Assembly (NCBI RefSeq): GCF_028752835.1
Contig: NZ_CP087952.1
Span: 186,001 to 250,000 of the forward strand
Direction: 5' to 3'
Source: Desulfosarcina sp. BuS5
Lineage (GTDB): Bacteria > Desulfobacterota > Desulfobacteria > Desulfobacterales > BuS5
Length of the DNA stretch: 64,000 nt
In this document: positions 38,886 to 52,030 of the stretch, piece after piece
Layout of the letters: each line of letters opens with the position of its first letter
Position numbering within the stretch: position 1 is the first letter of the stretch
Program-made: the position numbers and the translations under genes
Notes under the pieces: generated by a model
Database searches by the model: none
What the model saw: the letters and a program-made list of their open reading frames with translations, nothing else
Told to the model about the DNA's origin: nothing

Positions 38886-39701
38886 TTATTCCGCAATAGT
38901 AAACACATCATGGAAGCCTTGCTTTATAAGTATATCTTCATATTTTGCGGCCTGCTCCAGGGTGGCGCATTTCCCCGCTCTCACCCTGTAAATGGTACTA
39001 TCTCCAGTGTCAAATAGAGTGACGTGAACATTTTTGTAAATTGGATCCAGCTCTTTTTTTAATTTTTCAGCATTGTTTAAATCGCTGAATGCTCCGATCT
39101 GCAGGGTAAAGTTGCCCTTGTAATAGTCCAGCGGAACAAAACCAGATCCGGATTCAATTGTTGCGGCATTCTGTTGTCGTTCCTGCCCGAGCGCAACTAT
39201 CCTTACGCGTGCAGTCCCTGGCCCTACTATCCCTATTTTTTTTGCGGCAGCGTATGAAAGATCTATTATTCTCCCTTTAACAAAAGGCCCGCGATCATTG
39301 ATCCTTACATTTATCTTTTTATTATTGTCCAGGTTAGACACACTGACCCAGGTACCCAGGGGAAGTGTTTTATGCGCTGCTGAAATTGCATGCATGTTAT
39401 AGATCTCTCCGCTTGCGGTTTTCCTGCCATGAAATTTTTTCCCATACCAGGATGCTTTCCCGATCTGGGTAAAGCCGCGGGCATGAGCTAATGGCTGGTA
39501 CCAGTTGGAGCCTATTCTATAAAATTTGGTATAAGATTTGATATAAGGTTTTTTTTTGCCGACTGGTGCAGGAAGCTGACGGGCGGGTCTACTGACAGGT
39601 TCCACAGTTGTGCAGCTATTTATTAAAAAAAAAGATATTATACAAACCAGAAAAAAGGTTTTATTCAATCTGCAGGCCTCATTATTGTTTAGCAAGGGCA
39701 A
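38886..39701 (-). CDS. rlpA: RlpA-type septal-ring lytic transglycosylase lipoprotein with SPOR domain
   Basis: A 271-residue lipoprotein (hydrophobic signal then FFLINSC). The double-psi beta-barrel domain (about 80-170) has GKASWYGKKFHGRKTASGE, MHAISAAHKTLPLGT and RINDRGPFVKGRIIDLS. A SPOR domain (about 195-270, LQIGAFSDLNNAEKLKKEL) binds denuded septal peptidoglycan. The start overlaps the end of lon by 20 bases on the same strand. It ends three bases from the convergent NifA-like gene. Confidence 0.93.
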   Translation of the reverse strand: MPLLNNNEACRLNKTFFLVCIISFFLINSCTTVEPVSRPARQLPAPVGKKKPYIKSYTKFYRIGSNWYQPLAHARGFTQIGKASWYGKKFHGRKTASGEIYNMHAISAAHKTLPLGTWVSVSNLDNNKKINVRINDRGPFVKGRIIDLSYAAAKKIGIVGPGTARVRIVALGQERQQNAATIESGSGFVPLDYYKGNFTLQIGAFSDLNNAEKLKKELDPIYKNVHVTLFDTGDSTIYRVRAGKCATLEQAAKYEDILIKQGFHDVFTIAE

Positions 39702-42039
39702 CTTTCAAAACATCAATCATCTTTTCAGCAAAGACAAACTCAATATCGTTCTGTACCTTTTTGGGTATATCGTCCATATCTTTTTTGTTCCATGCAGGTA
39801 AAATAATTGTTTTAATTCCTGATCTGTGAGCTGCCAGAACCTTTTCCTTGATACCACCAACCGGAAGGACCTTCCCTCTAAGGGTAATTTCACCTGTCAT
39901 TGCTAAATTTTTCCTAATTGGTTTGTTGGTCATCATGGAGACCATTGCAGTCAACATGGTTACTCCGGCCGAAGGCCCGTCTTTTGGAATCGCTCCGGCA
40001 GGAACATGGATATGTATATCATGTTTTTCAAAAAAATCTTCATCAATTCCAAGACGTTTTGCATGTGTTCTTATAAAACTCAAAGCGGCTGAAGCGGATT
40101 CCTTCATAACATCACCAAGTTGTCCGGTCAGGGTGAGCGCTTTTTTTCCCTTCATGGCCGTAGCCTCGATAAAGAGCAATGTCCCTCCGGCCTGTGTCCA
40201 GGCCAGGCCCAAGGCCACACCCGGAGTTGAGACTCGGGAACGTTCCTCGGTAGAAAAGCGGACAGGGCCAAGATATTCAAAAATATCCTGCTTTTTAACC
40301 GTTACAGCTTCTACTTTCTCCTGGGCTACCAATACTGCAACCCCGCGGCATATAGTTGCGATTTCTCTTTCCAGGTTTCTTAATCCGGCTTCCCGGGTAT
40401 AAGCTGAAATTATATCCTTAACAGCCCCCTTTGTAAATTTTATATGTCCGGCTTTCAGCCCATGGGCTTCTCTCTGGCGCGGTATGAGATATTTATTTGC
40501 TATTTTGATCTTTTCATCCAGGGTATAACCGGAAAGCTGCAATACTTCCATCCTGTCCAGCAAAGCGGAAGGAATGGTGTCAAGAATATTGGCGGTTGTG
40601 ACAAACATTACCTTGGACAGATCAAACGGAACATCAAGGTAATGATCCGAAAAGGAGAAGTTTTGTTCCGGGTCCAGCACCTCAAGCAGGGCGGATGATG
40701 GATCGCCCCGGAAATCGCTGCCTACTTTATCAATTTCATCCAGCATAAAAACAGGATTGTTCGATTCAGCCCTTCTTATTCCCTGTATAATCCTGCCGGG
40801 CAGCGCTCCCACATAAGTACGCCGGTGGCCCCTTATTTCAGCCTCATCCCTGACCCCGCCCAGCGATATGCGTATAAATTTGCGCCCCAGCGCTCTTGCA
40901 ATGGAACGTCCCAAAGATGTTTTACCGGTGCCCGGAGGGCCGGAAAAGCATAAAATCGGCCCCTTCGATTCAGGTTTTAATTTGCGCACGGCTAAATATT
41001 CGATAACTCTTTTTTTCGGTTTTTCAAGACCAAAATGATCCTCTTCCAGAATTTTTTTCGCCTTATCAAGATCAAGATTATCTGCAGTGCTGCTATTCCA
41101 TGGCAAACTTGTAATCCAGTCAAGATAAGTAGAGGCAACCGTATATTCGGATGAAGAGGGATGCATGCGGCCAAGTCGGTTGAGTTCCCGCTCCGCTTCT
41201 TTCAAAGCAATTTCCGGAAGTTTGATTTCCTCAATTTTAGCTCTGTATTCATCAATTTCCACAGAGGATGCATCCTTTTCGCCGAGTTCCTCTTTTATAG
41301 CTTTAAGCTGCTGCCGCAGATAATATTCCCTTTGGCTCTTGTCCATATCGCCCTTTACCTGGGTCTGGATCTTGTTGCCCAGTTCCAGGATCTCCAGCTG
41401 GTGATTAACAAGGCGGGTAACCTCCTTTAACCGATCTTTTATATCATAGATTTCCAGAATTTTCTGTTTTTCATCCCTGGTTGAATTTATTATGGAAGCA
41501 ACCATATCCGCAAAGACGCCCGCTTCCTGAACTGATTGTGCCATTACGCCAAGTTCCTGGGGCAGGCCGGGGGATAGTTGAACAATCTTTGTGAAGAGAC
41601 CCGAAATATTAGTTGTTAAAGCTTCAATCTCCTTGCCTGTCTTTTTTTCATCCTCAATATGGACCACATTGGCAAGAAGATAAGGCTCTGTTTGGTTATA
41701 TTCTTTAATCCTGAACCTTCCCAGCCCCTGAACAAGCAATTGAGCCTTGTTGTTTTCTATTTTTGCCATTTTCAATATAAGAGCGCTTGTGCCTACGTCA
41801 TAAAGATCATCCTTTGATTCTGATTCGGTTTTTGAATCAATCGGCTGTTTGGATGCAATAAATCCGATAATACGATCTTTTGACATTGCATCATCAATAA
41901 GCCTGAGAGAATTTTCCTGCATTACCACAAAAGGCAAAACCATTTTTGGAAAAAGAACTGTATCAAACAATGGAAGGATAGAAAGGTTGTCAGGAATTTT
42001 TTCAGTGCCGAAGTCCATGGCCTGGCTAGGCTCTGTCAT
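39682..42039 (-). CDS. lon: ATP-dependent protease Lon
   Basis: A 785-residue LonA protease from the ATG at 42039 ([11 protein letters not shown]), set by TTGGAGG. The N-terminal substrate-binding domain (about 20-210), AAA+ module (Walker [12 protein letters not shown] near 355; Walker [10 protein letters not shown]) and C-terminal Ser-Lys protease domain ([10 protein letters not shown] with the catalytic Ser near 675; [10 protein letters not shown] with the catalytic Lys) are all complete. It degrades misfolded and regulatory proteins. It lies 38 bases downstream of an hsp20 gene, so the two are probably one stress operon. Confidence 0.97.
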
Positions 42040-42077
42040 TTTAACCTCCAATTTTTTTTTACAATAAAAGACACAAA

Positions 42078-42527
42078 TTATTCGTCTGATATTGTAATTT
42101 TTTGAGTCTTGTCCATAGAAATCTTGGATAATCTGATCTGCAGCATACCGTTTAAATATGATGCCGATACTGTCTCGGGATCTATAAGAGCCGGAAGAAA
42201 AAGCAGACGCTCAAACTTTCCATATTGAATTTCTGCAAGCCGGTAAACCGCACCATCAATACGCTGGGTAACAGCACGCTCACCTGAAATTTTAATAGCC
42301 TTGCTGCTGATCTCTACCTCCAGATCTTCCTTATTAACCCCTGCAATTTCAGCCAGCACTATTATCTCATCGCCGGTTTCGTAAATATCCATTTGAGGTT
42401 TCCATAAACGCTCGGAAAGGGTAAAAACCGGGTTTAAGGATCGAAGCATTTCTTCTATTGTTCTTTCAAAATTCGACCCTGTCCGCTCAAAATCTCTGGT
42501 AAACCTTATTTTGATATAATCCATCAT
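42078..42527 (-). CDS. Hsp20 / alpha-crystallin small heat-shock protein
   Basis: A 149-residue small heat-shock protein with an alpha-crystallin domain (about 45-140). It has PQMDIYETGDEIIVLAEIAG, the SGER motif and a C-terminal LPALIDPETVSASYLNGML with the conserved A-x-x-x-NG-x-L pattern; the C-terminal I-x-I motif is KITIS. An AGGAGTTA site lies before the tandem ATG. It holds unfolding proteins for refolding or for degradation by Lon, encoded next. No CIRCE element is visible in the 280-base region upstream. Confidence 0.92.
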   Translation of the reverse strand: MMDYIKIRFTRDFERTGSNFERTIEEMLRSLNPVFTLSERLWKPQMDIYETGDEIIVLAEIAGVNKEDLEVEISSKAIKISGERAVTQRIDGAVYRLAEIQYGKFERLLFLPALIDPETVSASYLNGMLQIRLSKISMDKTQKITISDE

Positions 42528-42727: not shown

Positions 42728-42781
42728 TTGACATTTTTATAGAAAAATTATTTTTTATAAAAATCGACTGACTACTCAATC
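42728..42781 (+). promoter_or_regulatory. TetR promoter region with candidate operator
   Basis: TTGACA at 42728-42733 is followed by an AT-rich stretch without a good -10 at standard spacing. The imperfect inverted repeat GACTGA-CTAC-TCAATC (42766-42781) has the size and form of TetR/FadR-type operators and lies 28 bases before the ATG of the tetR-like gene, suggesting autoregulation. The remaining intergenic sequence towards hsp20 holds no other feature that I can support. Confidence 0.4.
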
Positions 42782-42809: not shown

Positions 42810-43391
42810 ATGTCTAAAAAAGAAGCTATTATTCAGGCCGCAACATACCTTTTCTCCCGCAAAGGATTCAAGGATACACGCATGGTTGAGATTTCAACAC
42901 TGACAGGGGCGGCTGAAGGTACAATTTTTTATCATTTCAAAAACAAGGAAGAACTTTTCCTGTATATTCTTGAAAAATTTAAAAAAGATATTACAGATGA
43001 ATTCGAGCTGTACATTAGAGAGAATGAATTCAAAAACGGCCTTGACACGATAGAAAAGGCAGTAGCTTTTTATCTTGATTTAGCCGGCACCATGGAGGAC
43101 AGATTTCTTCTTCTTCACCGGCATGATGCTTATGAGCTTGCGGAGGCAAATCCGGTCTGCAGGGGTTATCTTGACACTATTTATACGTGTTTATTAAATA
43201 TCTTTGAACGTGCCGTGCTGCGCGGTCAAAAAGATGGATCCATCCGTGATATGCCCGCCAAAAAAGCTTCATTAATAGTCCTCAGTATGGTCGATGGTCT
43301 TGTGCGCTTGAACACATATAACCTTTATCATGCTGACGCTCTTTATGGGGAATTAATTGAGTCAGTGAGAAGGATGCTGCAAAAGAGTTAA
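42810..43391 (+). CDS. TetR-family regulator
   Basis: A 193-residue TetR protein. The helix-turn-helix is clear (AATYLFSRKGFKDTRMVEIS, then AEGTIFYHFKNKEELFLYIL). The C-terminal domain is helical and resembles FadR/RutR-like ligand domains (LDTIYTCLLNIFERAVLRGQ). It lies between the divergent hsp20-lon operon and a SulP transporter 100 bases downstream on the same strand, either of which it may control. An operator-like repeat precedes the gene. Confidence 0.9.
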   Translation: MSKKEAIIQAATYLFSRKGFKDTRMVEISTLTGAAEGTIFYHFKNKEELFLYILEKFKKDITDEFELYIRENEFKNGLDTIEKAVAFYLDLAGTMEDRFLLLHRHDAYELAEANPVCRGYLDTIYTCLLNIFERAVLRGQKDGSIRDMPAKKASLIVLSMVDGLVRLNTYNLYHADALYGELIESVRRMLQKS

Positions 43392-43494: not shown

Positions 43495-45624
43495 ATGCTC
43501 AATAAAATTTTCCCTTTTCTTGGCTGGTTTAAAAATTACGGCTCTGACAGCCTGAGAATAGATGCTCTTTCAGGACTTACAGTGGCCCTGGTCTTAATCC
43601 CCCAATCCATGGCTTACGCGCAATTGGCGGGATTGCCGCCATATTACGGTCTCTATGCATCGTTTCTGCCGCCCATGCTGGCATCATTGTTCGGTTCAAG
43701 CCGCCAACTGGCTACAGGACCGGTAGCTGTAGTTTCACTCATGACGGCCGCCTCTCTTGAGCCCCTGGCTACTGCAGGAAGTGAAGGATATATAGCTTAT
43801 GCTATTTTGCTGGCCTTTATGGTCGGCGCCTTCCAGTTTATTCTTGGCGTATGCAAGCTGGGCCTTATTGTTAATTTTCTTTCCCATCCTGTTGTTAATG
43901 GATTTACAAACGCGGCCGCCATTATTATTGCCTCATCCCAATTGTCAAAAATGTTCGGTTGTTATGTTGACAAGGCTGAACACCACTATGAAACGATATG
44001 GCGAGTCTGCCAGGCAGCCTTTCATTATACCCACTGGCCTACTTTGCTATTAGGCCTGCTGGCTTTTGGTATTATGTATGGCCTGCGTAAAATATCGCCC
44101 AAAATACCTAATGTCCTCGTAGCGGTAGTGGTAACCATACTTATCTCATGGGCAATCGGTTTTGAACATAACCTGGTTGTAGATATCAAAGATATAGAAT
44201 TTCTGGATGCCCGGGCGCTGATTGCGGATTTTAATAAAAACGTAGATACTGCAACTAAGCTTGCCAATGAGCGATCCAAGGTTAATTTTGCACTGGATCA
44301 AGCCGGCAAATCCCACGATATAATAGCCTTGCTCGATGCTGAACATAATTTTAAAGTGCTTAATGAAAATATAAATATTTTTAAAAAAAAAATACACCAT
44401 TGCCGTAAAGTTATCAGGGGTTTATTATTTGAGGGCGTAGAACAGCCTGATGGTTCCATAAAATTTTATTCCAAAGGAACACTTCCACCCGGCGTCAAGG
44501 GCGATGGCCGGGAATGGAGAATCAAGGTAGGCAACAGTAGTCTTGATCCGGACAAGCTGTTAATTACCGGTGGCGGCGCAGTGATAGGCGTGATCCCCAA
44601 GGGACTGCCCGAGTTAACCGTCCCTGAATTAGACTTTAAAATTATTTTACACCTCTTACCCTTTACAGCCATAATTTCACTGCTGGGTTTTATGGAGGCA
44701 ATCTCTATTGCAAAGGCAATGGCTGCAAAAACAGGCCAAAGGCTCGACCCCAACCAGGAATTGATAGGTCAAGGTATCGCCAATATTATCGGTTCAGTTG
44801 GAAAGAGTTATCCTGTTTCAGGATCTTTTTCCAGATCTGCGGTCAACCTGCAGGCCGGGGCGGTATCCGGATTATCGAACGTCTTTGCAAGTATTGCTGT
44901 TATTATTGTGCTCCTGTTTTTTACCCCTTTACTCTATAATCTCCCGCAGTCGGTGCTGGCGGCTGTTATTATGATGGCGGTTATAGGACTTGTTAATATC
45001 TCCGGTTTTATTCATGCCTGGAAAGTTCAGTGGTACGACGGGGCTATTTCCATAATTTCATTTATCTGTACGCTTATGTTTGCGCCTCATTTAGAAAAAG
45101 GGATTGAAATCGGAGTTGCACTTTCTTTGCTCGTATTTTTATTCAAGAGCATGAGGCCGACTCTTTCCTCTCTTTCAAGGGCTCCGGATAAATCTCTACG
45201 GGATTACATTGAACACGGCCTCGAAGAATGCGAGTTTGTAGCCATGATTCGTTTTGAAGGTCCCCTTTTCTTTGCCAGCGCCAGCCATATCGAAGATCAG
45301 GCCATGGAACTTTTGCGCAGGAAGAAAAAACTTAAACATATAATACTTGTTTCCAACGGGATTAGTGATATTGACGCATCGGGTGAGGATACATTATCCT
45401 TGTTTATTGACAACGTAAGAAGCTCTGGTATAGATATTTCTTTTAGTGGTGTGAATGAGACGGTTATGAAGATTATGAAGCGCACCCACTTATTAGCTAA
45501 AATCGGCGAGGACCATATCTATCCGACCATGGAAAATGCTTTAAATATAATCCACTCCCAGGCTCACAAGGATGAGTGGGAAGATACATGTCCACTCATG
45601 AACGTATCTTGCTTGACTGATTAA
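43495..45624 (+). CDS. SulP-family anion permease with STAS domain and large internal insertion
   Basis: A 709-residue SLC26/SulP transporter. It has the signature GLTVALVLIPQSMAYAQLAG with LPPYYGLYASFLPPML, PVSGSFSRSAVNLQAG and a C-terminal STAS domain (about 575-695). Between FEHNLVVDIKD (near 230) and AVIGVIPKGLP (near 362) there is an extra hydrophilic segment of about 125 residues, partly coiled-coil-like; ordinary SulP proteins have only a few residues there. The family carries sulfate, bicarbonate or other anions. A cytidylate-kinase-like/REC fusion follows 18 bases downstream, then a kinase and regulators, so transport may be under phosphorelay control. Confidence 0.92.
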   Translation: MLNKIFPFLGWFKNYGSDSLRIDALSGLTVALVLIPQSMAYAQLAGLPPYYGLYASFLPPMLASLFGSSRQLATGPVAVVSLMTAASLEPLATAGSEGYIAYAILLAFMVGAFQFILGVCKLGLIVNFLSHPVVNGFTNAAAIIIASSQLSKMFGCYVDKAEHHYETIWRVCQAAFHYTHWPTLLLGLLAFGIMYGLRKISPKIPNVLVAVVVTILISWAIGFEHNLVVDIKDIEFLDARALIADFNKNVDTATKLANERSKVNFALDQAGKSHDIIALLDAEHNFKVLNENINIFKKKIHHCRKVIRGLLFEGVEQPDGSIKFYSKGTLPPGVKGDGREWRIKVGNSSLDPDKLLITGGGAVIGVIPKGLPELTVPELDFKIILHLLPFTAIISLLGFMEAISIAKAMAAKTGQRLDPNQELIGQGIANIIGSVGKSYPVSGSFSRSAVNLQAGAVSGLSNVFASIAVIIVLLFFTPLLYNLPQSVLAAVIMMAVIGLVNISGFIHAWKVQWYDGAISIISFICTLMFAPHLEKGIEIGVALSLLVFLFKSMRPTLSSLSRAPDKSLRDYIEHGLEECEFVAMIRFEGPLFFASASHIEDQAMELLRRKKKLKHIILVSNGISDIDASGEDTLSLFIDNVRSSGIDISFSGVNETVMKIMKRTHLLAKIGEDHIYPTMENALNIIHSQAHKDEWEDTCPLMNVSCLTD

Positions 45625-45642: not shown

Positions 45643-46869
45643 ATGTCTAATATTACGATATTCAGTGGCAGCTTTTGTAATGAAGACGCCGTAGCGCAAG
45701 AGATTATTTCAGGCAGCGGATTCAAATTGATTACCGATAAAGATATTGTTGTCCGCGCAGCAGCCGGCTCCGGCATATCCGAAGTTAAAATAACGAAGGC
45801 CTTTTCATCCAGGCCTTCCATCTTTAATAAATTCACCCACGAAAAGGAACGTTCCATTGCCTATCTCAGGCTGACCATAGCTGAAATGCTTGCAGAAGAT
45901 AATCTGCTTATTACCGGATTCACGTCCCAGCTGGTTTCTCAAAATATCAGTCATATTTTAAGGGTTTGCCTTATTGCAGATATGCAATACAGGGTTTCCC
46001 GGGCATATGAAAAGGATGGGCTGACAAAAAAAGAAGCGACCACATTAATCCACAAGCAGGATGGCAACAGGGGCGCATGGATTGATATCCTGTTTAAAAT
46101 CAAGGATCCATGGGATCCCGAAATTTATGATTTGGTAATCCCTATGGATAAAACAGATGTCAAGAATGCGGCAGCTCTTATCAGGGATAATGCAAAAAAA
46201 GAAGCCCTTCAGCATACTGATATAACAAAAAATGCTGTCGCGGATTTTCTTCTTGCAGCTAAAGCCGAAGTAGCTTTGGCTGATGAGGGGCATAATGTAG
46301 GTGTCAGCGCCAAGAACGGCATTGTCACAATTACGATTAACAAACACGTCCTGATGCTGAGCCGACTGGAGGATGAGCTTAAATCTATAGCCGAAAAAAT
46401 CCCTGATGTTCGCTCTGTGAAAACAGAGGTTGGAGAGGGATATTACCGGACTGACAGCTACAGGAAATACGATTTCGAGATGCCCTCAAAAGTTCTGCTG
46501 GTTGACGACGAGAGAGAGTTTGTGCAGACCTTGTCCGAGCGTTTGCTCATGCGTGATATGGGTTCTGCTGTAGCATACGATGGCGAGTCAGCCCTCGACC
46601 TGATCAATGACGAAGAACCTGAAGTCATGATACTCGATCTCAAAATGCCCGGCATTGACGGAATTGAAGTGTTACGCAGGGTAAAATCAACAAATCCTGA
46701 CGTAGAAGTCATCATCCTCACCGGCCACGGTTCAGAGCAAGATAAAAAAACTTGCATGGATCTGGGTGCCTTCGCATATATGCATAAACCTGTGGATATC
46801 GAACTATTGAGCGATACAATCAAACAGGCAAATGAAAAAATGCGGAAAAACTTTAACCAGCGCGCTTAG
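45643..46869 (+). CDS. cytidylate-kinase-like - BON - receiver fusion protein
   Basis: A 408-residue three-part protein. Residues 1-190 match the cytidylate-kinase-like family (ITIFSGSFCNEDAVAQEI start, then FSSRPSIFNKF, DNLLITGF, RVCLIADMQYRV, and PEIYDLVIPMDK), but the P-loop lacks the GKS/T of an active kinase. Residues about 195-272 form a BON-like domain (AEVALADEGHNVGVSAKNG, SVKTEVGE). Residues 282-400 form a receiver (VLLVDDEREF, D332 in ILDLKMPG, ILTGHGS, HKPVDI). It is probably a response regulator with a nucleotide- or ligand-binding output rather than a CMP kinase. It is encoded between sulP and a dCache kinase. Start set by AAGGAA. Confidence 0.88.
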   Translation: MSNITIFSGSFCNEDAVAQEIISGSGFKLITDKDIVVRAAAGSGISEVKITKAFSSRPSIFNKFTHEKERSIAYLRLTIAEMLAEDNLLITGFTSQLVSQNISHILRVCLIADMQYRVSRAYEKDGLTKKEATTLIHKQDGNRGAWIDILFKIKDPWDPEIYDLVIPMDKTDVKNAAALIRDNAKKEALQHTDITKNAVADFLLAAKAEVALADEGHNVGVSAKNGIVTITINKHVLMLSRLEDELKSIAEKIPDVRSVKTEVGEGYYRTDSYRKYDFEMPSKVLLVDDEREFVQTLSERLLMRDMGSAVAYDGESALDLINDEEPEVMILDLKMPGIDGIEVLRRVKSTNPDVEVIILTGHGSEQDKKTCMDLGAFAYMHKPVDIELLSDTIKQANEKMRKNFNQRA

Positions 46870-46895: not shown

Positions 46896-48620
46896 ATGAT
46901 ACCAAAAATGTTAAAACCTAAATTCTGGGATTATCATGATACGTCGCCACATAAGTCAGAACACCGCTTCAATTTTCGACGAATCTGGTGCCTGACAGTG
47001 CTGCTTATTGCAGGAGTCTCCCTGGTACCCCTGATCTCTATAACACTGATTGACTACAACGTTACAGAGCAGTCGATTGAGTCCGATATCATGCTCCGCA
47101 CGGCCAGGCTCGTATCCAATACACAGCGCAGTATTTCATTTTTCATAACTGAACGCCGATCCGCGTTGGATTTTATTGTTCGTGACAACACTTTTGAGTC
47201 TTTGACTGATCCTGCCAGGCTTGCTGCTCTGCTGGATAACATAAAGAAAGGATTCAGCGGGTTTATAGATCTGGGAGTTATCACCCATGGGGGAAGGCAA
47301 AAAGTTTATGCCGGTCCATACAATCTTGAAGGCCGCAATTACAGTAAACAGAATTGGTATCAACAGGTTTTGGACCAGGGTGTATATATAAGCGATGTAT
47401 TCCTGGGATTCAGAAAAATACCACATGTCGTTATCGCAATAAAACGTATCCTGCCTGATGGCTCTTTTTATGTATTCCGCGCAACCCTTGATACGAAACA
47501 GTACAACAACCTTCTCCACAATCTTGAAATGGCCGGGCAGGGGGATGCATTTCTAATAAACCATGCCGGAATACTCCAGACCCCATCACGCTTATATGGA
47601 AAAGTTTTTCAGAAAATATCACTTCCTGTTCCTGGATATGCTCCTAAAACCAGGGTGCTGGAGGGAAGAGGCACCAATGGCGTGCCGCTGATTATCGGCT
47701 ACAGATATATTTCAAACAGCCCGTTCATCCTGATGGTGGTCAAGCAAAAAAAAGAGGTTATGGAGACATGGCTCAATACCCGGATGGTGCTGATATGGTT
47801 TCTTTGTATCAGTATAACAATTATACTGATAGTAACTTTGAGCATAACCACCCACCTGGTAAACCGGATACATTTAGCCGACACAAAACGAGTCATGACA
47901 TTGCATCAGGTGGAATTCACCAACAGGTTGGCGTCCATCGGACGGCTGGCGGCAGGTGTTGCCCATGAGATCAACAATCCCCTCGCTATTATCAATGAAA
48001 AGGCAGGGCTCATTAAAGATCTTTTCAAAATAAAAAAAGAATACCAAAATGATGAAAAGATCATCGGACTTATAGACTCAGTGCTATCTTCTGTGAAGCG
48101 AGCCGGTACTATCACAAAACGCCTATTGAACTTCGCTCGGCACATGGATGTAAGTATTGAAACCATCAACCTGAAAAAAGTTATATCTGATGTACTTGGA
48201 TTTTTGGGCAAAGAAGCCGAATACCGGAGCATAACAGTTAATTTACATGTAGCTGATGATATCCCCCTCTTTACAAATGATCGTGGCAAACTACAGCAAA
48301 TTTTCCTTAACCTTATCAACAATGCCTTTGCCGCCATGAATGACGGTGGGCACCTGGATATATTGGCAAAGAAAAAAAAGGATAAATATGTTGAAATAAA
48401 AGTTTCTGACGATGGATGCGGCATACCCGAATCACTCCGGCATCTTGTTTTTGAGCCTTTTTTTTCAACTAAGCAAAAAAAAGGAACAGGTCTTGGTTTA
48501 ACTATAACCCATCGCCTTGTTCACGAAATCGGTGGTAAAATCGCCTTGGAAAGTGTAGCCGGCAAAGGAACGACCTTTACGATAACATTACCTCTTAACA
48601 CTAAGAAAAATGAGGATTGA
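46896..48620 (+). CDS. dCache sensor histidine kinase (NtrB-type), paralogue of the 31782 kinase
   Basis: A 574-residue membrane kinase: TM1 (about 30-52), double-Cache sensor (55-295), TM2 (about 300-322), DHp with [11 protein letters not shown] (His357) and HATPase_c with NLINNAFAAMN, DDGCGIP and KKGTGLGLT. The sensor shares DLGVI, VYAGPYN, ISDVFLGF and RATLDTKQYN motifs with the kinase at 31782. It is encoded between the kinase-like/BON/REC fusion and a single-domain regulator whose start overlaps its end, which makes these two its likely phosphotransfer partners. Confidence 0.92.
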   Translation: MIPKMLKPKFWDYHDTSPHKSEHRFNFRRIWCLTVLLIAGVSLVPLISITLIDYNVTEQSIESDIMLRTARLVSNTQRSISFFITERRSALDFIVRDNTFESLTDPARLAALLDNIKKGFSGFIDLGVITHGGRQKVYAGPYNLEGRNYSKQNWYQQVLDQGVYISDVFLGFRKIPHVVIAIKRILPDGSFYVFRATLDTKQYNNLLHNLEMAGQGDAFLINHAGILQTPSRLYGKVFQKISLPVPGYAPKTRVLEGRGTNGVPLIIGYRYISNSPFILMVVKQKKEVMETWLNTRMVLIWFLCISITIILIVTLSITTHLVNRIHLADTKRVMTLHQVEFTNRLASIGRLAAGVAHEINNPLAIINEKAGLIKDLFKIKKEYQNDEKIIGLIDSVLSSVKRAGTITKRLLNFARHMDVSIETINLKKVISDVLGFLGKEAEYRSITVNLHVADDIPLFTNDRGKLQQIFLNLINNAFAAMNDGGHLDILAKKKKDKYVEIKVSDDGCGIPESLRHLVFEPFFSTKQKKGTGLGLTITHRLVHEIGGKIALESVAGKGTTFTITLPLNTKKNED

Positions 48621-48625
48621 GGCAA

Positions 48626-48988
48626 ATGAAAATATTATTGGTAGATGACGAAGAAGAACTGGTCTCGGCTCTGGCAGAACGTTTAGGAATCAGGGGAATA
48701 GACGCGGAGTGGGTTATCTCAGGGGAGGAAGCTCTTTTGCGGGTGAAAGATGGAAAATTTGATCTTGCCGTGCTGGACGTAAAGCTACCCAAATTAGGCG
48801 GACGTAAACTAAAAAAGATATTACAGGAAAAATGCCCTGACATGAAATATATTTTCATGACGGGACACGGGTCGGAAGATGATTTCCAGTCCATTTCGAA
48901 TGAAGTAGGCAAAGAGTACTACCTGTTTAAGCCGGTCGATATTGACGACCTTATCAAAAAAATAAAAGAGGCTCTACATAGTCACTGA
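48626..48988 (+). CDS. single-domain response regulator
   Basis: A 120-residue receiver from the ATG at 48626 (MKILLVDDEEELV), preferred over a TTG nine bases upstream because GAGG lies at proper spacing. The phosphoacceptor is D51 in VLDVKLPK, followed by the conserved Thr (MTGHGS) and Lys (FKPVDI). The alpha4-beta5 region (SISNEVGKEYYLF) is unusual: the usual GAFDYL is absent, so its docking surface may differ. It starts six bases after the dCache kinase stop codon. Confidence 0.9.
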   Translation: MKILLVDDEEELVSALAERLGIRGIDAEWVISGEEALLRVKDGKFDLAVLDVKLPKLGGRKLKKILQEKCPDMKYIFMTGHGSEDDFQSISNEVGKEYYLFKPVDIDDLIKKIKEALHSH

Positions 48989-48996
48989 GGTGTTTA

Positions 48997-49662
48997 ATGA
49001 ATTCTGATATCAACATAATTGGCGAGTCAGGCCTTCAGTTTTTTGGAAAAATATCAGCTTCGATCTCACATGAAATCAACAATGTTCTGGCCATTATCAA
49101 TGAAAATGCCGGGCTTTTAGACGATTTTACTATCATGGCTGATAAAGGAATGCCGATTGACCCGAAGCGCCTGAAAAATGTAGCATCAAAAATATTGGTA
49201 CAAATACGTCGGGCAGATGAAATTGTTCGAAATATGAACACCTTCTCCCACACTATTGATCAAATAAAAGCAGATCTTGATTTGCGGGAAACCGTTGAAT
49301 TTGTGGTCACTCTCTCCCACAGGTTTGCCTCCATGCGCGGCATTACAATTGAAATTAAGCCACCTGAAAATATAGTAATAATCAGCACGGCAGCTTTTTT
49401 TCTGGAAAACCTGATATGGCTTTGTCTTGATTTCGCTATGAACATAACCGGTTCGGCCAAGACAATCAGCATACTTATCGAAGAAACAGGTTCAGGCGGC
49501 CGGATTCGATTTGCCGGGCTTGAAGGTTTGACATCAGAGCTTGCGGATACTTTTCCTTCCGACCGGGAAACAGCCCTGCTTGGTATGCTTAAATCTGAAC
49601 TGACAGTCAGCGCCGAAGAAAAAGAGCTTATCCTATATTTGCCAAAACTGCATAATCTTTGA
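48997..49662 (+). CDS. degenerate soluble histidine kinase (DHp with ATPase remnant)
   Basis: A 221-residue cytoplasmic protein. It has a good DHp H-box (ASISHEINNVLAIINENAG, His25) closely resembling that of the dCache kinase, and a second helix (RRADEIVRNMNTFSH). The following domain has the size of HATPase_c, but the N-box reads FFLENLIWLCLDFAMN without its Mg-binding Asn, and no DxGxG or GTGLGL motif is present. It probably cannot bind ATP and may act as a phosphotransfer intermediate or a dimer partner. It starts eight bases after the regulator. Confidence 0.8.
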   Translation: MNSDINIIGESGLQFFGKISASISHEINNVLAIINENAGLLDDFTIMADKGMPIDPKRLKNVASKILVQIRRADEIVRNMNTFSHTIDQIKADLDLRETVEFVVTLSHRFASMRGITIEIKPPENIVIISTAAFFLENLIWLCLDFAMNITGSAKTISILIEETGSGGRIRFAGLEGLTSELADTFPSDRETALLGMLKSELTVSAEEKELILYLPKLHNL

Positions 49663-49800: not shown

Positions 49801-51228
49801 ATGAAACAAATTGAAACGCTTATAAAAAGGATCATTCAAAGGGTCAACATCAATCTCAGGGAACTCGATTTTGATGTTAACCCTTATATTGACGATATAC
49901 ATTTAAAATGTCGATTGTCAAAATTTTACGCTTTTTATGGTATAACGCCTCATCACAAATTAAGCTTTAAATTCATTAATTCGTCCCTTGCCGGCAGTTA
50001 TTTTTTAGGGAAAAGTAAAATAGATCATTCAATATTGTATAAAAGCGATATAAGAGGAGATGAATTAAAGAGTAAAGGTACTACTTATCAATATAAAGAT
50101 TATGAAATTCCTGTTTACGATGATGAAGAAATACAAATAACTGATAGTATTTTGATTAAAACCCTTGTACATAATTTTTCCCATGACCCTGAAAGCCTGG
50201 AAATTTTTCATATAAAAAATACAGTTTCAACCCATTTTACAAATATTCATGGATCATCAACAGAAGGATGCTTTTTAGGGCCTTTTAGTACAGTTGATTT
50301 AACAACTATTCATGATTGTGTTTTCGGGGAATTTTCCTATATACAAGTAGAAGAGCTTGCCCACCAAAAAGTGAATCCGGGTACTATAAGGGTATCATAT
50401 AAAGACAAATTTGATTTCCATTATCAATTTTCTGAAGAAATTTTAAAAAAATATATTGATTTTGATTCAAAAAATTTGCCCATAGGCGTTTTAATGGATT
50501 TTGTTGAAAACAGAAAAGTGGATTTTGAAAATGTTTTTGAGTTTATCAATAGAAAAAATCCTGTTTCCATACCGAAAAATACTGCTTTAGACAGGTATTC
50601 AGTTGTACGAGGTCAGACAAGAATAGGTAAAAATGTTCTCGTAGCACAAAGAGCTTATTTGGAGGATGCAAGTCTTGGAAAGGGAGCAAATGTTCAGGAA
50701 AACTGCTATATTATACATTCTCATCTTGAAGGGTATGATATCACAGCTCATGGAGCAAAAATTATCAATTCAAGACTGGGCGAGAAGATTTTTGTAGGGT
50801 TTAATTCCTTTGTACGGGGTAAAATTGATAAACCTCTTATTATAGGAGATGGCTGTATTGTTATGCCTCATACGATCATTGATCTCGAAGAGCCCTTGAT
50901 AATTCCTTCCGGTTTTATTGTATGGGGATATATTAAAAATGCAGAGGATCTAAAATTAAACGGAATGCCTTTAGAATCCTTTTCAAAGATAAGAAATGAG
51001 TTTAAACTGGGAAATATGAAATTTAAAGGAAATGGAGGCATTTTTATTAATGCCTTTCAGGAAAGGATCGATCATATACTTCACGCCAACGGAGCCTTTT
51101 TTGATGTATCAGATGATAATGCAGGGGGGCATGCTCAAAAAAATCAAAATATCTCATTTAACACGATTCAGCCATATCCTGCTGGGGATTTAAAGGGGAT
51201 TTATCCGACAATGGAAATTAAGCCATAG
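49801..51228 (+). CDS. left-handed beta-helix (hexapeptide-repeat) protein
   Basis: A 475-residue protein. The centre (about 265-385) shows hexapeptide-type repeats (VVRGQTRIGKNVLVAQRAYL, GKGANVQENCYI, IIGDGCIVMPHTII), the left-handed beta-helix found in acyl- and nucleotidyl-transferases and carbonic anhydrases. The N-terminal 170 residues also look repetitive (IHGSSTEGCFLGPFSTVDLT). No catalytic motif can be assigned, and it is longer than simple acetyltransferases. Gene and product are AT-rich relative to neighbours. It lies between the SulP signalling block and a response regulator, with no tight coupling to either. Confidence 0.8.
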   Translation: MKQIETLIKRIIQRVNINLRELDFDVNPYIDDIHLKCRLSKFYAFYGITPHHKLSFKFINSSLAGSYFLGKSKIDHSILYKSDIRGDELKSKGTTYQYKDYEIPVYDDEEIQITDSILIKTLVHNFSHDPESLEIFHIKNTVSTHFTNIHGSSTEGCFLGPFSTVDLTTIHDCVFGEFSYIQVEELAHQKVNPGTIRVSYKDKFDFHYQFSEEILKKYIDFDSKNLPIGVLMDFVENRKVDFENVFEFINRKNPVSIPKNTALDRYSVVRGQTRIGKNVLVAQRAYLEDASLGKGANVQENCYIIHSHLEGYDITAHGAKIINSRLGEKIFVGFNSFVRGKIDKPLIIGDGCIVMPHTIIDLEEPLIIPSGFIVWGYIKNAEDLKLNGMPLESFSKIRNEFKLGNMKFKGNGGIFINAFQERIDHILHANGAFFDVSDDNAGGHAQKNQNISFNTIQPYPAGDLKGIYPTMEIKP

Positions 51229-51592: not shown

Positions 51593-52030
51593 ATGCAAAC
51601 ACGTATATTAATAGTTGATGACGAGAAAGAATTCGTACAAACATTATCAGAGCGTTTATCTATTCGCAACTATTCCGTAAACACAGCTTTCAGTGGCGAA
51701 GGCGCTATTGAAAAAATAAAAAAATATAATTTTGATGTGGTAATTCTAGACGTGGCCATGCCAGGCATGAGCGGAATAGATGCTCTGCGGGAAATCAAGA
51801 AGTTAAAGCCCTTGACTGCAGTTATTATGCTGACCGGACAGGCAACAGTGGAAACAGCCATAGAAGGGATGAAACTTGGGGCTGATGATTTTCTTCAGAA
51901 ACCATGTGAAACGGAAGATCTGCTGTCTAAAATTGACAAAGCCTATGAGAGAAAGGCAGAACATGACGAACGTATAAGGGAGGCAAAGGTAAAACAGATT
52001 ATATCCTCTCCCATGTCTGTTTTAAAATAG
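51593..52030 (+). CDS. single-domain response regulator with basic helical tail
   Basis: A 145-residue receiver protein (residues 4-120, VDDEKEF, D53 in VVILDVAMPG, MLTGQAT, QKPCET) with a charged helical tail (ERKAEHDERIREAKVKQII) nearly identical in pattern to that of the regulator at 60584. There is no kinase next to it. An orphan regulator is likely; cross-talk with the neighbouring dCache kinases is a guess. Confidence 0.92.
   Translation: MQTRILIVDDEKEFVQTLSERLSIRNYSVNTAFSGEGAIEKIKKYNFDVVILDVAMPGMSGIDALREIKKLKPLTAVIMLTGQATVETAIEGMKLGADDFLQKPCETEDLLSKIDKAYERKAEHDERIREAKVKQIISSPMSVLK

Follow-up and report, generated by a model that had tools for sequence, protein, structure and literature searches.

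The window analyzed here is the whole 64,000-nt stretch of DNA from Desulfosarcina sp. BuS5 (assembly GCF_028752835.1, contig NZ_CP087952.1, positions 186,001–250,000, forward strand). It contains an operon in which the gene of a SulP sulfate permease is followed by that of a fusion protein combining a Cytidylate_kin2-like, a BON-like, and a receiver domain. The fusion as a whole is called CKB-REC and its output part CKB, both names being our own. As stated in the original prediction, the fusion gene starts 18 nt past the stop of the transporter gene (45624). The features of the locus, all on the forward (+) strand and numbered by the window, are the following:

42766..42781, +, operator-like 16-bp palindrome GACTGACTACTCAATC, 28 nt ahead of the TetR gene (pattern search)
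42810..43391, +, TetR-type regulator (Pfam)
43495..45624, +, sulfate permease of the SulP family, 709 aa, bearing a STAS domain (Pfam)
44161..44580, +, SulP insertion region, residues ~223–362, a ~130-aa insertion that splits the PF00916 match
45589..45612, +, Cys motif following STAS, in the C-terminal tail of SulP; it reads CPLxxxxC here and usually CPLxxxC
45643..46869, +, CKB-REC (Cytidylate_kin2-like + BON-like + receiver fusion), ATG start, 408 aa
45652..46149, +, Cytidylate_kin2-like (CMP-kinase fold) domain of CKB-REC, residues 4–169 (Pfam PF13189), with a degenerate P-loop
45676–45678, +, Cys12 of CKB-REC, kinase-like domain
45967–45969, +, Cys109 of CKB-REC, kinase-like domain
46219..46431, +, BON-like domain of CKB-REC, residues ~193–263 (family profile comparison and predicted model)
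46492..46821, +, receiver domain of CKB-REC, residues 284–393 (PF00072, E 8.2e-27)
46636–46638, +, D332, predicted phospho-acceptor of the CKB-REC receiver
46896..48620, +, sensor histidine kinase with dCache-like sensor, HisKA, and HATPase (Pfam; conservation)
48617..48988, +, stand-alone receiver, 123 aa (Pfam)
48997..49662, +, HisKA-type protein, candidate phosphotransferase, with an invariant His25 and no recognizable ATPase domain
51593..52030, +, stand-alone receiver of 145 aa that may correspond to the final receiver gene of the operon in relatives (gene calling and comparison of mapped loci)

The predicted model of CKB-REC, obtained with AlphaFold2 on 49 fused relatives, has a mean pLDDT of 91.1 and a pTM of 0.85. 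Judged by its residues, the receiver passes as a full PF00072 receiver with the acidic pair, the phospho-Asp, the Thr, and the Lys: all 49 aligned fusions have D288, D332, T360, and K382, and at least 90% of them have D289. A structure search with the whole of CKB-REC gave receiver domains alone among the matches listed. A frame-joining artifact absent from relatives, the case that the original prediction had set against itself, is ruled out by at least 120 distinct fused sequences, and the frames of at least 400 aa among the matches listed have no internal stops. The 408-residue, three-part fusion with a complete receiver and D332 is thus borne out by Pfam, by the predicted model, and, for the BON-like part, at the level of the family. 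Pfam finds no DNA-binding domain in CKB-REC; a winged helix of the WalR/OmpR type is absent, the receiver being the C-terminal domain.

The BON-like segment proposed earlier holds for the family but not for the window sequence taken alone, which gives no match to the BON family (PF04972) at E ≤ 1. At this threshold, PF04972 is matched by 30 of 42 family members (best E 7.4e-4), the next family being matched by 4, and an hhalign comparison of the family profile with 11 genuine BON domains gave a probability of 95.8 and an E-value of 6.8e-9. In the predicted model, residues 193–263 follow the order helix–strand–strand–helix–strand.

The kinase-like domain matches PF13189 with 72.3 bits (E 7.5e-20) against a curated Pfam cutoff of 28. 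CKB-REC does not have the catalytic GxxxxGK[ST] P-loop, and GxxxxGK occurs in none of 120 distinct fused sequences (that of the window included) compared to 10 of 26 unfused ones, among which sits a fused gene cut by a contig end (L117). A P-loop with Lys or Arg at that site is seen in 1/120 fused and 14/26 unfused sequences. The fusion of locus L062, which has runs of N, was left out of the alignment and of the 120-sequence counts, and its SulP was counted. The loss of the Lys-Ser/Thr pair is therefore real, as originally noted, but it is not a special trait, since two PF13189 paralogues in the same genome are also without GK[ST] and have GxGG instead; the loss of the Walker lysine was for this reason rejected as a diagnostic mark. 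In the fused clade, the whole Gly-rich loop is lost, mostly with FSGxFC in its place. As a consequence, nucleotide binding by the kinase-like domain, suggested at the outset as an output, is not supported, and the sequences indicate that a pseudo-kinase adaptor would fit better than a nucleotide binder.

The CMP-kinase fold was read off the predicted model of a stand-alone CKB relative (pLDDT 87.3), not of CKB-REC itself. The best structure matches of this model, at Z 15.8 and 15.1, are entries described only as "putative kinase" and "uncharacterised protein", respectively, which we infer to be members of the PF13189 family. CMP kinases match from Z 14.4 down, over approximately residues 1–188. 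The kinase domain fills the lists of matches, and no BON structure is among those listed. Such a fold, together with the matches to APS kinases at Z ~10 and the conservation of R117 (119/120 fused sequences), W146 (116/120), Y162, and D163 (120/120), could speak for an active nucleotide enzyme, or a sensor of, e.g., ATP, AMP, or APS, that is gated by the receiver. However, APS kinases score level with shikimate kinases and no better than other small kinases, and in view of the missing GxxxxGK we consider an activity of this kind very improbable.

In a phylum-wide set of 395 genomes, a relative of the first 283 residues is found in 166, of which 50 were taken as fusion carriers by open frame and match length. 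A search of named species genomes with one peptide pattern gave 272 stretches encoding a relative; the best 80 of these, all with Deltaproteobacteria, Proteobacteria, Thermodesulfobacteriota, or Desulfo- names, are the named targets referred to below and comprise 77 fusions and 3 stand-alone or cut genes. At two loci (L122 and L134), the chosen target is a stand-alone CKB, and each locus also has a fusion behind SulP. In a tree of 86 rows, for which one in six of the named fusions was taken, a single branch with 100/99 support parts 61 fused from 25 unfused proteins, so that one fusion event suffices. A dsrA match over the cutoff is present in 47 of the 50 carrier genomes vs 141 of the 345 others (Fisher p 1.2e-13, uncorrected for ancestry). 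Of the three remaining carriers, two are 62–67% complete; in the other (G043, 94% complete) dsrA gives a weak match alone, a case that counts against the proposed link of the fusion to sulfate uptake in dissimilatory sulfate reducers.

The usual gene order around the fusion is TetR, SulP, CKB-REC, cache kinase, a receiver of ~120 aa, a HisKA-only protein of ~220 aa, and a receiver of ~142 aa. Of the 74 named targets with more than 900 nt of upstream flank, 70 are directly preceded by SulP, and of the 69 with more than 900 nt downstream, 61 are followed by a kinase gene. In the unnamed set, which overlaps the named one, SulP adjoins CKB-REC upstream in 36 of 46 loci. The two sets were pooled for the counts of fused sequences, SulP runs, SulP proteins, and Cys pairs; identical sequences were removed from the fused-sequence and SulP-protein counts and kept in the count of 111 runs (104 distinct by the C-terminal part of the fusion). 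The gene labels cover genes resembling 16 reference families, other neighbors being unlisted. Since operons are inherited as units, the locus counts are not independent. The neighborhood with SulP or SLC13 to which the original prediction had pointed is found in both forms, SulP recurring widely and a DASS/SLC13 link being present too, and the view of CKB-REC as a transporter-linked response regulator whose output is not DNA-binding gains support from this recurrence and from the lack of a DNA-binding Pfam match. The architecture of CKB-REC and its association with a transporter are firm.

Apart from the SulP of the window, no PF00916 gene was found in this genome, which is 97% complete. PF00916 is found in 41 of the 43 carrier genomes searched and is missing from those of L076 and L078. 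The SulP genes adjoining the fusion that were matched to loci by hand (n = 35) are all of the inserted type, with PF00916 in two pieces, and the insertion region comprises 135–155 residues in the 91 linked SulP proteins. For the SulP genes elsewhere in carrier genomes (n = 20, shorter or partial PF00916 matches left out), the insertion is present in 4 and absent in 16, where the region has 7–15 residues. Two of these 16 genes have a CKB-like stretch within a few kb (L203 and L205), so that CKB proteins are not confined to the inserted type. By size and insertion, the window SulP matches group Ci as described in the text of PMC5840216 (2018), which has ~710 aa with an insertion and is placed there in the sulfate-transporter clade, although the insertion is given there as ~90 aa and measures ~130 here. 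The PXYGLY motif reads PYYGLY in the window SulP, and 40 of the 91 linked proteins have PXYGLY. In the hydropathy profile, the insertion follows six peaks and one weak stretch; combined with the 7+7 fold given in PMC6497670, this position would put it outside the cell, where its partner could be the sensor instead of the fusion. A passage of PMC5840216 describes an extra membrane helix instead.

Downstream of the fusion, the dCache_1 match of the sensor kinase has 40.9 bits, below the cutoff of 45. In the HisKA-only protein, His25 is invariant in 29 members and HisKA is matched in 26 of them, and no HATPase family is among the matches of the 29 at E ≤ 1. The family profile aligns to PDB histidine kinases over positions 4–176 of 221, as expected of a degenerate kinase. 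With the HisKA His kept and the ATP-binding domain lost, the product of gene 48997 has the sequence features of a Spo0B/ChpT-like protein, and phosphotransfer by it is predicted. The Spo0 and ChpT phosphorelays consist of a kinase, a single-domain receiver, a HisKA-derived phosphotransferase without ATPase, and a final receiver. The CKB-REC operon encodes the same set of predicted relay parts, but its final output is not a transcription factor.

We propose that dissimilatory sulfate reducers control their sulfate uptake by a phosphorelay whose output protein, CKB-REC, acts at the protein level on SulP, a reading that we hold tentatively and judge to have slightly less than an even chance of being correct. 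The external signal, which is probably sulfate or a related anion, would be sensed by the cache-domain kinase (46896). From there, the phosphoryl group would reach D332 either directly or by way of the stand-alone receiver and the HisKA protein that has no ATPase domain, an order suggested by the likeness to Spo0 and ChpT. Phosphorylation of D332 would alter the non-DNA-binding output, i.e., the pseudo-CMP-kinase and the BON-like domain, and the altered CKB would then act on the SulP protein encoded upstream. The observations behind the proposal are the architecture, the conserved operon, the single fusion event, the intact receivers, the several transporter families, and the SulP proteins with a receiver in four loci; we infer the signal, the order of phosphotransfer, the contact with the transporter, and the direction of the effect on uptake.

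At the four loci in question (L057, L062, L067, and L074), the SulP upstream of CKB-REC has 845–864 residues and carries a full C-terminal receiver after STAS (PF00072, E 7e-29 to 4e-28). Out of 91 distinct SulP proteins from the mapped loci, 4 are of this kind; they belong to two families, L057 with L062 and L067 with L074. Their receivers are 55–63% identical to the CKB-REC receivers of the same loci and the window, compared to 27–47%, and in one case 52–56%, for the other receivers of these loci. The CKB parts of the three of these loci that the tree includes group together with 99/98 support, along with that of L060, which is from the same genus as L057 and whose SulP is off the contig. 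As far as the sequences indicate, the receiver-bearing SulP is a natural fusion of the relay target with the transporter, which makes it the strongest argument for protein-level control. A switch of this kind encoded right behind the transporter gene, and in a few species fused to the transporter, suggests that the cell controls sulfate uptake at the protein level, through phosphorylation. In lineages where SulP can carry a receiver of its own, however, the effector acting on it may be something other than CKB-REC. In the open-licence literature, we found no account of a SulP-STAS protein with its own C-terminal receiver.

The presence of several receivers in one operon could also mean that the fusion chiefly tunes the relay, its receiver being a phosphate sink or a branch point and its kinase-like/BON part serving to localize or dimerize the protein. 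Phosphate-sink receivers are known in other systems. Against such a role, the output part is conserved at many positions, D163 and R117 among them, and it also occurs without a receiver, beside other transporters; we regard relay tuning as a quite unlikely main function.

Turning to transcription, TetR is present in 73 of the 111 SulP runs, and a sigma-54 regulator in 12, of which 7 carry a receiver and are DNA-binding response regulators; transcription is hence controlled as well. The palindrome GACTGACTACTCAATC has a chance expectation of 0.02, for a pattern that was picked after being seen. A looser pattern is found in 19 of 78 TetR upstream regions vs 1 of 78 shuffles, so that most relatives are without the palindrome in that form. 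The palindrome at 42766–42781 fits the 16-bp palindrome reported in PMC11887813 (2025). The text of that paper describes SulP clusters of Desulfobacteraceae with TetR, cache kinases, and response regulators, as well as DASS with CBS genes; in its proposed model, sulfate uptake is regulated by these clusters, with WalR-type regulators working at the promoters. The cluster in the window, with SulP, TetR, a cache-domain kinase, and response regulators, is like those; CKB-REC, having no DNA-binding domain, is unlike the WalR-type regulators.

On these grounds, one may suppose that transcription is the target of the module: once phosphorylated, the fusion would bind TetR or another DNA-binding partner and so switch the sulP operon. 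The TetR gene, the TetR-type palindrome ahead of the operon, the seven runs with a sigma-54 response regulator, and the published model (PMC11887813) in which the response regulators of such clusters act on promoters are all in line with this. On the other hand, CKB-REC itself has no DNA-binding domain, and no DNA-binding response regulator was recognized among the genes resembling the reference families in 104 of the 111 runs. Across the 111 runs, the recognized receiver proteins other than the fusion, the receiver-bearing SulP, and the sigma-54 regulators have at most 185 aa. A SulP with its own receiver is, moreover, hard to account for by transcription alone. We consider this explanation unlikely.

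The loci without SulP bear on control at the protein level in both directions. In the unnamed set, 10 loci have no SulP upstream. In favor of the proposal, CKB-REC can occur with other anion transporters where SulP is absent, namely with DASS in L079–L082 and L084 and with TSUP in L076 and L078; each transporter family was identified by Pfam from a single representative. The DASS arrangement (L079, L081, L082, and L084) consists of CKB-REC, a receiver, CBS, and the DASS transporter. Several observations count against the proposal. According to PMC11887813, the transporters are constitutively abundant. In the DASS-type loci, the fusion does not adjoin the transporter gene. Two of the 10 loci are without any recognized transporter, L070 having the operon and L083 being isolated, and in L086 the transporters are on the other strand. 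Among the stand-alone relatives, five (L087, L090, L092, L094, and L096) have no recognized transporter beside them. In the TSUP arrangement (L076 and L078), the order is TetR, CKB-REC, kinase, HisKA-only protein, receiver, and TSUP. A further arrangement (L038, L085, L088, and L089) has a sigma-54 regulator, a USP-like gene, an SLC13/TrkA-C transporter, two stand-alone CKB genes, and a receiver, with the kinase gene last where the stretch extends that far. The BuS5 genome itself holds a second CKB gene, with an apparent membrane tail, beside a TSUP gene. The stretch concerned (L006 6578–17116) contains a sigma-54 regulator, a USP-like gene, the CKB protein with its likely membrane tail, and the TSUP transporter, and also PPDK/PEP-utilizer-like genes, a receiver, and a kinase.

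A more specific form of the protein-level proposal involves cysteines. Of the 120 fused sequences, 108 have both Cys12 and Cys109, 6 have one of the two, and 6 (L079–L084) have neither; five of these last six are in DASS-type loci, with L083 having no recognized transporter nearby. No unfused sequence has either Cys save the cut gene of L117. The Cys motif of the SulP tail is present in 80 of the 91 linked SulP proteins, and its first Cys in 90. The Cys pair of the fusion and the tail motif are associated with p 0.015 over 103 pairs, uncorrected for kinship in the tree, and since two of the three rows without both Cys features are SulP-receiver proteins with a replaced tail, the coupling is a lead only. 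In this form, the phosphorelay would gate sulfate uptake post-translationally, CKB-REC docking on the cytosolic STAS domain and the transporter itself having become a response regulator in some lineages, while Cys12/Cys109 and the SulP tail Cys could form a thiol or metal contact that provides feedback from internal sulfide. We regard this combination as possible but doubtful.

With regard to known systems, the cluster as such has been described, and the original statement that no described system is of this kind has to be narrowed, given the two-component genes in the clusters of PMC11887813. The kinase-like/BON output stands as a novelty: the main text of that paper does not mention cytidylate, BON, or receiver, and an ATPase-less HisKA protein and a SulP with a receiver are absent from its section on the clusters. 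In the open-licence literature, we found no paper with an account of the fusion or of a kinase-like/BON output. What is new is the output as a putative protein-level controller, which domain content, gene order, and the SulP-receiver fusions point to. PMC5840216 places SulP genes by their distance to sat/apr/dsr, and its main text does not contain "response regulator", "histidine kinase", or "two-component". For Desulfobacterium autotrophicum, it reports high expression at high sulfate for a SulP gene and a DASS gene whose locus tags are close together, and another of its passages gives the DASS genes of this organism the other way round. The main text of the Desulfovibrio vulgaris fitness paper PMC10102598 has no "sulfate transport", "sulfate permease", "cytidylate", or "TauE", and "sulp" appears there in reference titles alone. 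The DctA-DcuS-DauA system of E. coli, as described in PMC5703999, is a case of transporters coupled physically to two-component signaling, as proposed here; there, the transporters steer the sensor, while for CKB-REC the relay is proposed to act on the transporter also.

Sulfate uptake is the first step of dissimilatory sulfate reduction, a process that drives much of the carbon turnover of the seabed. If the phosphorelay does act on the transporter protein, uptake could change within seconds without new transcription. The present results also give a setting and a testable job to an uncharacterized kinase-like family (PF13189) and draw attention to sulfate permeases that bear their own receiver domain.

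Some further features were observed in the course of the analysis. In the window operon, a hexapeptide-repeat gene precedes the last receiver; its product (49801–51228, inside the operon region) has weak similarity to CcmM, and relatives of it occur near SulP/DASS clusters in L040, L042, L043, L099, L114, L122, L130, L165, L166, and L171. Elsewhere in the BuS5 genome (L005 373–2172), a Cytidylate_kin2 domain lies in one open frame behind a sequence resembling histidinol-phosphate aminotransferase, a likeness taken from the N-terminal residues. Just upstream of TetR, on the other strand (39682–42527), are genes named from their sequences as a Lon-like protease and Hsp20-like.
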